DNA of 64,000 bases from an uncultured bacterium. Lineage in GTDB: Bacteria; Cyanobacteriota; Vampirovibrionia; Gastranaerophilales; Gastranaerophilaceae. Below are positions 33,055 to 35,823 of the stretch, piece by piece. The stretch is taken from positions 1-64,000 of the forward strand of contig CASDWY010000031.1 of assembly GCA_949284985.1 (NCBI GenBank), in the 5' to 3' direction. Within the stretch, counting starts at the first letter, position 1; each line of letters opens with the position of its first letter. Under the pieces are notes generated by a model that was given only the letters and a program-made list of their open reading frames with translations, was not told where the DNA came from and searched no databases. Both the position numbers and the translations under genes were made by a program.

Positions 33055-33297
33055 TTACAGCTCTTCATAGAGAGTTGAAGCAGACTGCACAGAAACATTA
33101 CCGGTTGGAATTTCAATTACTCGAACAATTACTGTTTTATTGTATTGCTCAATTTTGATAATGTCCCCGACTTTAAGCTGCTTTGCAGGTTTGGCAATCG
33201 CATCGTTAACGTAAATACGACCTTGTTCTGCAACATCATTTGCAACAGTGCGTCGTTTTATTAATCGTGAAACTTTTAAAAATTTATCTAAACGCAT
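33055..33297 (-). CDS. rqcP: S4-domain RNA-binding protein (RqcP/Hsp15-like)
   Basis: An 80-aa protein consisting of one S4 RNA-binding domain: MRLDKFLKVSRLIKRRTVA, GRIYVNDAIAKPAKQLKVGD. This matches RqcP (YlmH/YabO), which acts in ribosome-associated quality control (Ala-tail synthesis with RqcH), or Hsp15. It starts 2 nt after the upstream 441-aa hypothetical gene ends, so the two are co-transcribed on the minus strand. Confidence 0.85.
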   Translation of the reverse strand: MRLDKFLKVSRLIKRRTVANDVAEQGRIYVNDAIAKPAKQLKVGDIIKIEQYNKTVIVRVIEIPTGNVSVQSASTLYEEL

Positions 33298-33299
33298 AA

Positions 33300-34625
33300 T
33301 TACATTTTATTAGCTGAAAATGATTGAGCAAGTTTTTCTTTGATTTGATTTGCTACGTGGAAATCTTTTGTTCCGGCTTTTTTCTTTCTGTATTCAAACA
33401 TTATTTTGGGCATTATGTATCCTAAAGCAGCGCAGCAAATGCCAATGTTTGATATTATTGCCGCAATTTTATAATTTCTGGCTCTTTTTACAAAACTTCC
33501 CAGTGTGTGCTCTGATTCAGCTGCTTTTTTGCTAAAGTTTTCTAATGATTTTGCAAGAGATTTAATATCATTTGTGTCAATATAGGCAGCTGGGTTTATT
33601 TCTCCATTTTTAAATTTTGCAATTAAGCCAGAAAGCTTTGCTCCTTCAACTATTACAGATTTTTGGTTTTGGGCAATGTAGTCTAAAATTTCTTTTTGCG
33701 TATTTAAGCTAAGAACTGTTTTTATTTCGTCATTAAGTTCTTTTGTTCCTAATGCGTTTTTAAGTGTGTCTGAATTTATAAATCTTAAATCCATGTCGAT
33801 TGGAGTTTTAAGGTATTTGCTTACGGCTTTTTGAATTCCATTTTGAATCCACTCTCCCGCTGCGTACATAAAAAACAGTAATGAACCTTCTTTAATAGCG
33901 TATTCTGCAAATTCATACTTATTTCTTGATTTATGTAGTCTTTCTGTGGTAATTCCTGCATCTATTAGCATCATGTTTTTAACAGGGTTAAACATGAATG
34001 ATTCAATCCCTTTAAAGGATTGTATTTTTTTTGTTTTACCGGCAAATGCCATTTTATGAAAATTTTTGAATTGTTTTGTATCTTTTGTTTTGCTGAGTAA
34101 GAAATCTTTGTTAGCTTTTTGTTGAATATATTCTTTTGTTATAGCTTTTTCTGTAATATTTTGTTTATATTTTGTAAGCGCAAAATACGATGCAAAAGTT
34201 AAAATGGTAGCAATAGCAAATTTTGAGTAGAATAGAGCTTTGAATGTCGGTAATTTTTGTATAGCATTATTTAATGATTGGAGCGTTTTTTTTGCTTCAT
34301 CTCCTTTGTTATTTAAAACTTTTGCTGCAAATTCTGCGTGATCTTTAGAGGCAGCTACTCGCACGTCAATATTGGGATCAAGTTTTTTAAACTTGTAAAG
34401 GGTTTTATCAGCGATTTTTTTAAATATTGGCAGCCCGAAAAGCCATATGGCTTGTGTTCCAAATTCATCTATAAATCTGTCTTTTCCCTCAAGTTTGCCA
34501 CCTGCGTCGTAAGAAAAATAGGTAATTCCTGAGCTGTTAATTGTATCTTTTATTCCTAAAGGGATCCGTGATGATGGGTCTCCAAGTTTTGAAATTATTA
34601 TATTTGATATAGTGTTTGCTTGCAT
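33300..34625 (-). CDS. Hypothetical membrane protein, 441 aa
   Basis: No named family is recognised. There are hydrophobic segments near residues 140-165 (KFAIATILTFASYFALTKY), 250-265 (SLLFFMYAAGEWI) and 395-412 (AAIISNIGICCAALGYIMP), so it is probably a membrane protein, with a Lys-rich remainder. It carries two SFxG/AFxG-type tripeptide contexts (HKMAFAGKTK, IQSFKGIES) like other hypotheticals in this window. AGAAAGGGTAGG precedes the ATG. The S4 protein gene follows 2 nt downstream. Confidence 0.65.
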   Translation of the reverse strand: MQANTISNIIISKLGDPSSRIPLGIKDTINSSGITYFSYDAGGKLEGKDRFIDEFGTQAIWLFGLPIFKKIADKTLYKFKKLDPNIDVRVAASKDHAEFAAKVLNNKGDEAKKTLQSLNNAIQKLPTFKALFYSKFAIATILTFASYFALTKYKQNITEKAITKEYIQQKANKDFLLSKTKDTKQFKNFHKMAFAGKTKKIQSFKGIESFMFNPVKNMMLIDAGITTERLHKSRNKYEFAEYAIKEGSLLFFMYAAGEWIQNGIQKAVSKYLKTPIDMDLRFINSDTLKNALGTKELNDEIKTVLSLNTQKEILDYIAQNQKSVIVEGAKLSGLIAKFKNGEINPAAYIDTNDIKSLAKSLENFSKKAAESEHTLGSFVKRARNYKIAAIISNIGICCAALGYIMPKIMFEYRKKKAGTKDFHVANQIKEKLAQSFSANKM

Positions 34626-34654: not shown

Positions 34655-34825
34655 TCATAAGCCCCAAACTAAATTCATTAATTTAGTCAAAGGAGCAGCT
34701 GCTTTTCTGTAACCGCACAAGCGACCTTGTTGACCGCCGGCTTCTTGCATGTTGGCAGCTAAACAGTATCGACGTAGTGCCGTTTTGCTGTTTATGATAT
34801 TTTGCTGTTTGAAAGTGTTTTTCAT
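34655..34825 (-). CDS. Small hypothetical protein, 56 aa
   Basis: A 56-codon reading frame with ATG at 34825 preceded by AAAGGGTAGC. The product is basic, with NMQEAGGQQGRLCGYRKAAA and a C-terminal NLVWGL. Codon choice uses GGC, GCC, CGC, TGC and TAC more than the neighbours, so it stands out in composition. The gene for the 441-aa protein starts 29 nt after its stop codon. A weak promoter (TTGTTA 34898-34903, TATTAA 34875-34880) lies upstream. I do not know its function, and it could be non-coding RNA with coding-like sequence. Confidence 0.45.
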   Translation of the reverse strand: MKNTFKQQNIINSKTALRRYCLAANMQEAGGQQGRLCGYRKAAAPLTKLMNLVWGL

Positions 34826-34901
34826 GCTACCCTTTATAGCTGTTAATGTTTCTGAAAAATTATTTGTGCTTATTTTAATATAAATCTTTTCATTTTGTAA
34901 C

Positions 34902-34929
34902 AAAAAAGCTTTTCGATTGTTCGAAAAGC
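34902..34929 (-). terminator. Intrinsic terminator of the candidate small RNA
   Basis: GCTTTTCGA and TCGAAAAGC form a 9-bp stem (34908-34916 with 34921-34929, 4-nt loop) followed on the minus strand by TTTTTT. No minus-strand protein gene ends upstream of it, so it must end a transcript initiated at about 35030. Confidence 0.8.
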
Positions 34930-35030
34930 CCGAAATTAAACATAACTTACATCGCAGTGTTTAAATGCGGACCTTAAAAATATTTATGTTACGTCGTATT
35001 AATATAATCATTTTTCTTTCTCTGTATTAC
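34902..35030 (-). ncRNA. Candidate small non-coding RNA, about 129 nt
   Basis: A consensus promoter (TTGACA, 16 bp, TATACT at 35037-35064) and a strong terminator (34902-34929) bracket about 129 nt with no substantial gene. Besides the terminator stem, the RNA can form a 7-bp stem (AACATAA at 34984-34990 with TTATGTT at 34939-34945) enclosing a small CGCA/TGCG hairpin (34953-34969). A 16-codon frame (34961-35011) is also present but has only a weak AGAGAAAG ribosome binding site. It does not match my memory of 6S, SRP, tmRNA or RNase P RNA. Confidence 0.6.
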
Positions 35031-35036
35031 ATTTTT

Positions 35037-35064
35037 AGTATATCAGCAAACGATTGATTGTCAA
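35037..35064 (-). promoter_or_regulatory. Near-consensus promoter for the candidate small RNA
   Basis: On the minus strand, TTGACA (35059-35064) is 16 bp from TATACT (35037-35042). This is among the best -35/-10 matches in the window. Confidence 0.7.
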
Positions 35065-35175
35065 CAAAGCTTAATTTAATAATAAAGTTAATTGTTAATT
35101 TTTATTAATAAAAAGCAATTTTTTGTACGTAAATGTTTTTTAAATGTAGAAGGATAAATATTGGGAGTTTTTATT

Positions 35176-35823
35176 ATGGGAGAAACACCACTTTTTGCAG
35201 GTACAATATCATTGTCAACAAGTCCGTACTATATGCCGACAAGCGGTAGTTGTTCGGTTCATGGTTCAGGGATTAATTATGCTACATCCCCAATTCAAAA
35301 TAGCATATATTCTGATGCAACAAGCAGCTCTGTTACTCAAGACAGTTCTGGAAGTATTTTTGGTTCTATTGGAAATGGAATAGCAAGTTTTGGCAGTGCA
35401 TTGTGGGACGGCACTAAAGCTGTAGGCGGTGCTATTGGCGATTTCGGTATAGCTACAGGTGAGGTCGCTTGGGACAGTGCAAAAGCAGTTGGTAGAGGTA
35501 CAGGAAAAGTTATTGGCGGTGCATTTAATTGTGTTGGCAATATTCTTGAATTTTGCGGAGATCTTTTAGGCGGCATCGGAGTAGGCTATGGATTTGGCGC
35601 AGGATTTGGAATGGGATATGGCTTAGGTGCTGTTGGTTTTCCGTATACATTCCCTGGATTTTACGGCGGATGCTACCCACCGGCTTTTGTTGGGTTTGGT
35701 GCATGTAGACCTTTGCCACCTCCGGTAAGATTAGCTGGTCCGGTTTTCCCTGTAGGGGGTGTTGTGCCACATACTCGTTATATCCCTAATTGGGGTGCAT
35801 GTATGCCAAGACCGCGCTTTTAA
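35176..35823 (+). CDS. Gly/Pro-rich hypothetical protein with internal repeats
   Basis: A 215-aa protein with no recognised family. After a Ser/Thr-rich N-terminus, two copies of an amphipathic repeat appear (ALWDGTKAVGGAIG and VAWDSAKAVGRGTG, about residues 75-110), then a Gly/Phe/Tyr-rich tract (GYGFGAGFGMGYGLGAVGFP) and a Pro-rich C-terminus with several Cys. The composition suggests a membrane-associated or surface-layer-like structural protein. The ATG at 35176 has GGGAG 8 nt upstream; an upstream TTG at 35161 is also possible. Confidence 0.6.
   Translation: MGETPLFAGTISLSTSPYYMPTSGSCSVHGSGINYATSPIQNSIYSDATSSSVTQDSSGSIFGSIGNGIASFGSALWDGTKAVGGAIGDFGIATGEVAWDSAKAVGRGTGKVIGGAFNCVGNILEFCGDLLGGIGVGYGFGAGFGMGYGLGAVGFPYTFPGFYGGCYPPAFVGFGACRPLPPPVRLAGPVFPVGGVVPHTRYIPNWGACMPRPRF

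Follow-up and report, generated by a model that had tools for sequence, protein, structure and literature searches.

A candidate ribosome-mediated attenuator with tandem arginine codons precedes a gene depleted of tRNA-Arg(ICG) codons in Gastranaerophilales

Results

The window analysed here is a stretch of 64,000 nucleotides of contig CASDWY010000031.1, from an uncultured cyanobacterial member of the Gastranaerophilaceae, and the element under study lies on its minus strand. A consensus scan located a promoter at 35037..35064 (-), with the -35 hexamer TTGACA (35064-35059) and the -10 hexamer TATACT (35042-35037) separated by 16 bp, which amounts to 11/12 consensus matches with a TG ahead of the -10 box and a predicted start near 35030. 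The transcript would run into an intrinsic terminator at 34902..34931 (-), whose stem (34931-34906, GGGCTTTTCGAACAATCGAAAAGCTT) is followed by a T-run; the 600 bases scanned contain no second terminator-like site, and shuffled sequence would be expected to contain 0.4. Both promoter hexamers are kept in the two other genomes of the genus, and so are the terminator and part of the leader. Promoter and terminator had already been picked out in a sequence-only reading of this DNA, which took the 129 nt between them for a folded RNA of no common family and with no clear gene. The RNA is indeed more stable than its shuffles (-24 versus -17.5 kcal/mol, z -2.24) and the Rfam search returned no family for the element; at gathering score, the Rfam families, including T-box and amino-acid leaders, gave a single tRNA in the whole window. 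The 129 nt do contain a gene, an ORF of 16 codons (MIILIRRNINIFKVRI and a stop, 34961..35011, -), which we call A and which is kept as a leader ORF in the relatives.

Two further ORFs follow on the same strand, B (34655..34825, 56 aa, ending in LMNLVWGL before the stop) and C (33300..34625, 441 aa). The weak separate promoter that had been proposed for B did not hold up, its best match (9/12) being at chance level. The noncoding block from the terminator to B (34826-34905, -) is conserved in the window and 79 related loci, with the consensus TGTTAAAAAAnGTAAAAA followed by GCAA, TTCAG and TTA at fixed spacing, and could act as another control element or as a promoter. On the other side of the leader, the window encodes a divergent Gly-rich protein of 220 aa (35161-35823, +) that has no match in Pfam or NCBIfam and a similar ORF of 222 aa at the equivalent place in genome G002. 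In ten related loci (L036, L039, L040, L042-L046, L053 and L054) a tRNA gene, tRNA-Glu by its sequence, lies directly 5' of A, and because of this position the leader is probably cotranscribed with it there. A few bases 3' of C lies a gene for an S4-domain protein like Hsp15/RqcP (33055-33297, -), which follows C in all three genomes of the genus (the window, L061 and L062) and not in the other loci read; all six of its Arg codons in the window are CGT, CGC or CGA.

Of 286 genomes of the order, 112 had matches to a profile built from three B proteins. Of the 89 B-bearing loci that were read, 83 share the same order of elements, with A carrying an Arg-Arg pair, the terminator, B ending in MNLxWGL directly before the stop, and C of ∼410-490 aa, C being counted where the locus was long enough. 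The complete unit of A, terminator, B and C (∼450 aa) recurs across the family and the B-C pair across the order, and the intrinsic terminator is present in all 84 leaders examined. Within the order, 222 of 241 genomes encode C; among the matches listed from 292 genomes sampled across the phylum, none lies outside the order. Out of 146 genomes, 72 had one match to a covariance model of the leader with an E value no worse than ∼1e-6, and the matches of this model adjoin C wherever coordinates were compared, including genomes outside the model. The window leader is the only match in its own genome (E 0.001), and the search for further genes under the same leader found none. As there is one strong match per genome and it sits beside C, the leader appears, from these comparisons, to be dedicated to C.

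The peptide encoded by A is variable outside the Arg-Arg pair. As A ends ahead of the KGLF tail in some loci, the tail is conserved as RNA and not as peptide. The opposite is the case for B, the C-terminal end of which is conserved as peptide, with varying synonymous codons and all three stop codons in use. B also has an Arg pair near its start (CGT-CGA, 34769..34774, -), found as CGACGA in 80 of the 85 B ORFs of other loci. We modelled whether a ribosome stalled on this pair could unmask the start of C and found no effect on that start; pairing between B and the sequence ahead of C is nevertheless stronger within a locus than between loci. B has no match in Pfam or NCBIfam, and C belongs to no family of either at cut-off, with scattered weak matches in single members across Pfam, NCBIfam, PADLOC, PHROGs and the PDB. 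An AlphaFold prediction of C from three sequences was unusable (mean pLDDT 40).

In the window the arginine pair of A is CGA-CGT (34991..34996, -). Across 83 leaders the pair is CGA-CGT in 38, CGA-CGA in 32, CGA-CGC in 11 and AGA-CGA in two, so that 81 of 83 have CGA-CGH and none has CGA-CGG. The strand CGACG is invariant in the leader alignment while its pairing partners change, so it must be fixed by more than pairing. At the wobble position the second Arg codon has A, U or C, with compensating partners, and never G. The genome contains one tRNA-Arg gene each for the anticodons ACG, TCT, CCG and CCT. In bacterial tRNA-Arg(ACG) A34 is converted to inosine, and a tRNA with inosine at position 34 reads CGU, CGC and CGA; judged by their letters, the CGT, CGC and CGA codons of the leader pair match the codon set of this tRNA, tRNA-Arg(ICG).

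The leader contains four segments ahead of the closing strand of the terminator (segment 5), all defined by duplex energies and covariation: segment 1 (GACGTAAC, 34988..34995, -), which overlaps the Arg-Arg codons and pairs with segment 3 (GTTATGTT, 34939..34946, -); segment 2 (AAGGTCCG, 34968..34975, -), which is located close to the end of A or overlaps it and is the 5' strand of an antiterminator; and segment 4 (CGGGCTTT, 34925..34932, -), common to the antiterminator 2:4 and the terminator 4:5. Helices 1:3 and 2:4 thus cross. In all three cases the partners bind better within than across loci, and both better than shuffles (-13.9, -9.4 and -5.6 kcal/mol for 1:3; -14.9, -11.5 and -5.3 for 2:4; -14.1, -10.0 and -3.7 for 4:5). 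In an alignment of 44 leaders none of 500 shuffles reached the observed covariation, either for 1:3 together with 4:5 or, separately, for 2:4. Slid controls were also far below the observed values for both sets, a control that favours the structure because it was drawn from one member; more weight attaches to the many double changes. Within the genus of the window helix 2:4 has been re-formed from different letters: the window has AAGGTCCG:CGGGCTTT where G002 has AAGGTTCG:CGAGCTTT, which is a clear compensatory change. The nested hairpin that had been drawn in the sequence-only reading survives in part: its AACATAA/TTATGTT stem belongs to helix 1:3, the equivalent of which covaries throughout the family, and the enclosed CGCA/TGCG pairing shows no conservation in the alignment.

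Folding 83 leaders under ribosome constraints, at the stage when segment 5 has yet to be transcribed, gave a mean probability of helix 2:4 of 0.93 with a ribosome on the Arg-Arg pair, 0.02 with a ribosome at the stop codon and 0.53 without a ribosome, in line with attenuation. For the complete leader at equilibrium the terminator was favoured in most ribosome states, and because of this an attenuation model would depend on timing. In the window leader the free (0.93) and stalled (0.97) states are alike and only a ribosome at the stop makes a difference (0.00).

The codons of tRNA-Arg(ICG) are nearly absent from C. The C genes contain four CGT, no CGC and four CGA among 1083 Arg codons (eight in total), compared with 798, 339 and 284 of 4370 (1421 in total, about one third) in a background that combines the window with 20-kb samples of 20 of these genomes. 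No ICG codon occurs in 83 of 88 C genes, compared with only five of the 196 background genes that have 10 or more Arg codons. Fisher's test gives p 1.3e-137 for the depletion, a value that overstates certainty since codons of related loci are not independent, although the gene counts point the same way. For all other codons of any amino acid the depletion in C is at most ∼1.7-fold, and CGG, a codon of a different tRNA, shows no depletion. C does not avoid arginine as an amino acid, as non-ICG Arg codons are 2.73% of the codons of C against 2.27% of the background. Codon reassignment is ruled out by the tRNA-Arg(ACG) gene and by the use of ICG codons in ordinary genes, where they represent 1.05% of codons. 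The C gene of the window retains one CGA, together with seven AGA and one CGG.

The depletion extends to C genes that have diverged further, as far as L226 in another family of the order; these genes have 10 ICG codons among 229 Arg codons, six of them in one B-less locus; most of these genes are preceded by a B-type ORF. It does not extend to 15 distant paralogs of C, with 78 ICG codons among 198. Such a distant paralog, with no leader and ordinary Arg codons, is found in many genomes among the loci L211-L215 and L196-L210, and several genomes of the same set have a further C-type copy, the one in L215 with its own leader ORF. In genus g24 (L216, L231 and L234) B has only 15 aa (for example MNKHSKKLMNLKWGL and a stop), contains no Arg and ends 4 nt before C. 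We found no Arg-Arg leader ORF in these three loci, and their C genes are still without CGT, CGC and CGA. In genus g29 (L219 and L228) B is decayed or missing, and C has regained CGT and CGC in L219 (6 of 22 Arg codons) and has one such codon in L228.

Discussion

In this work we have described a conserved leader in Gastranaerophilales that we consider likely to be the 5' leader of the A-B-C operon, acting as a ribosome-mediated transcription attenuator that senses the supply of tRNA-Arg(ICG) and leads to the expression of the codon-immune protein C. The comparisons among genomes demonstrate the architecture, the leader ORF, the identity of its codons, the covariation of the three helices and the purge of codons from C. 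As in an attenuator, the locus has a leader ORF with conserved codons, a terminator before the structural genes and an antiterminator that shares segment 4 with it; the choice between the two structures according to the position of the ribosome comes from constrained folding only. According to this model, when tRNA-Arg(ICG) is plentiful the ribosome would pass CGA-CGT, reach the stop codon of A and cover segment 2, so that segment 4 would pair with segment 5 and transcription would stop. If this tRNA is in short supply or uncharged, the ribosome would stall on CGA-CGT, block helix 1:3 and leave segment 2 free to capture segment 4 before segment 5 is made, allowing readthrough into B and C. The slow reading of Arg-Arg pairs with CGA in a his-leader assay in Salmonella (PMC4046918) speaks for such a reading. 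In the absence of a ribosome, 1:3 would compete with 2:4. A starved cell could still translate C, its gene being practically without ICG codons, and this may be the purpose of the purge. Several observations do not fit easily with this model: C is purged in genus g24 even though the Arg pair of B is lost and no Arg-Arg leader ORF was found, the window leader folds in the same way whether free or stalled, and the C gene of the window keeps one CGA.

The proposed mechanism resembles the trp, his, leu, thr and ilv attenuators in its short leader ORF with regulatory codons, its intrinsic terminator and its competing antiterminator, with the position of the ribosome predicted to decide. Classical amino-acid attenuators pair 1:2, 2:3 and 3:4. 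Unlike the trp/his class, the element described here pairs 1:3, 2:4 and 4:5 with crossing helices, has only two regulatory codons that are confined to one isoacceptor, contains a second conserved short ORF (B) after the terminator, and its target C is not a biosynthetic enzyme and is nearly free of the codons of that isoacceptor. The closest case involving arginine is orf34-speF of Salmonella, where slow reading of two consecutive Arg codons in the leader orf34/SpeFL switches the RNA structure (PMC6386406). Both leaders are short ORFs with two consecutive Arg codons, and in our element the switch is predicted. However, the pair in orf34 is AGG-CGG and can be made of rare or of frequent Arg codons to the same effect, with outputs through Rho, RNase G and translation on an ornithine decarboxylase (PMC6386406), whereas the pair in our element is nearly always CGA-CGH, the terminator is intrinsic and C is not in a known family. 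Membership of the speF orf34 leader family (DUF2618) found no backing, since neither B nor C has a family at cut-off and A, at 16 aa, is too short to be scanned. The strictly conserved end of B right before its stop codon is reminiscent of TnaC-type arrest peptides, a likeness from sequence alone, since B has no established sequence relation to them and, unlike them, carries its Arg pair near the start. We found no earlier description of this leader in the open-licence papers searched.

The trigger could possibly be a specific loss of tRNA-Arg(ICG) or a general arginine shortage. That the same attenuator responds to general arginine starvation, with the ICG isoacceptor becoming uncharged first and C using the isoacceptors that are still charged, is a possibility to which we give limited credence. 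Selective-charging theory accounts in this way for codon choice in known attenuators (PMC1183508), and orf34 senses arginine through its two consecutive Arg codons (PMC6386406). The codon and gene counts, taken by themselves, nevertheless favour a signal specific for ICG, because arginine is not avoided in C and because the demand for AGA (2439 codons) exceeds that for ICG codons (1421), with one gene per tRNA, so that with equal amounts of tRNA the one reading AGA would be expected to be uncharged first. Going beyond the attenuator itself, we can tentatively imagine, though we think it rather unlikely, a dedicated alarm for the loss of one tRNA isoacceptor: tRNA-Arg(ICG) might be destroyed, for example, by a phage-triggered nuclease or by that of a competitor, and its loss would open the attenuator so that codon-immune C is made when many genes cannot be finished, while B, which needs ICG and is made only with the tRNA present, might restrain C.

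Other readings were also weighed. In an attenuator of this shape, the CGA-CGN pair could serve only as a constant site of slow reading that sets the pace of ribosome and polymerase, the true signal being a different one, such as a general slow-down of translation or a ribosome-targeting drug; Arg-Arg pairs with CGA are read slowly in a his-leader assay in Salmonella, even without starvation (PMC4046918), but this reading, which we regard as improbable, leaves unexplained the loss of exactly CGT, CGC and CGA from C. The independent sRNA initially proposed for this site is very hard to reconcile with a leader that lies in cis, on the same strand and directly 5' of B and C in every relative where it is resolved, as a single strong copy per genome and with a conserved leader ORF; moreover, helices that swap letters by compensation leave little conserved sequence for targets. 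Its promoter and terminator are real and a further role in trans is conceivable for the terminated leader, yet it is the other option raised at the time, an attenuated leader, that our results support, the leader ORF, the antiterminator and the target C having been missed then. Least probable of all, and hardly credible to us, is that A or B is a tRNA-sequestering mini-ORF toxin, to which the tandem Arg codons in very short ORFs would correspond, as they do in the best-known CreT case. CreT toxins sequester tRNAs and are repressed by a CRISPR-guided RNA (PMC8501985), and the common point would be a short ORF engaging a specific tRNA; unlike CreTA, the ORF described here is part of a covarying attenuator upstream of a conserved gene, a design to which both the attenuator and the purged C are foreign, and the codons concerned are common in the ordinary genes of these bacteria.

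If the attenuator model is correct, this leader would be tuned to one tRNA isoacceptor and not to an amino acid, and the codons for that isoacceptor would have been removed from the target gene by selection across a bacterial order, which would provide a clean example, open to experiment, of codon choice that serves survival. It would also suggest that gut Gastranaerophilales repeatedly lose tRNA-Arg(ICG) and would give a first regulatory handle on C, a nearly universal and uncharacterised protein of the order.
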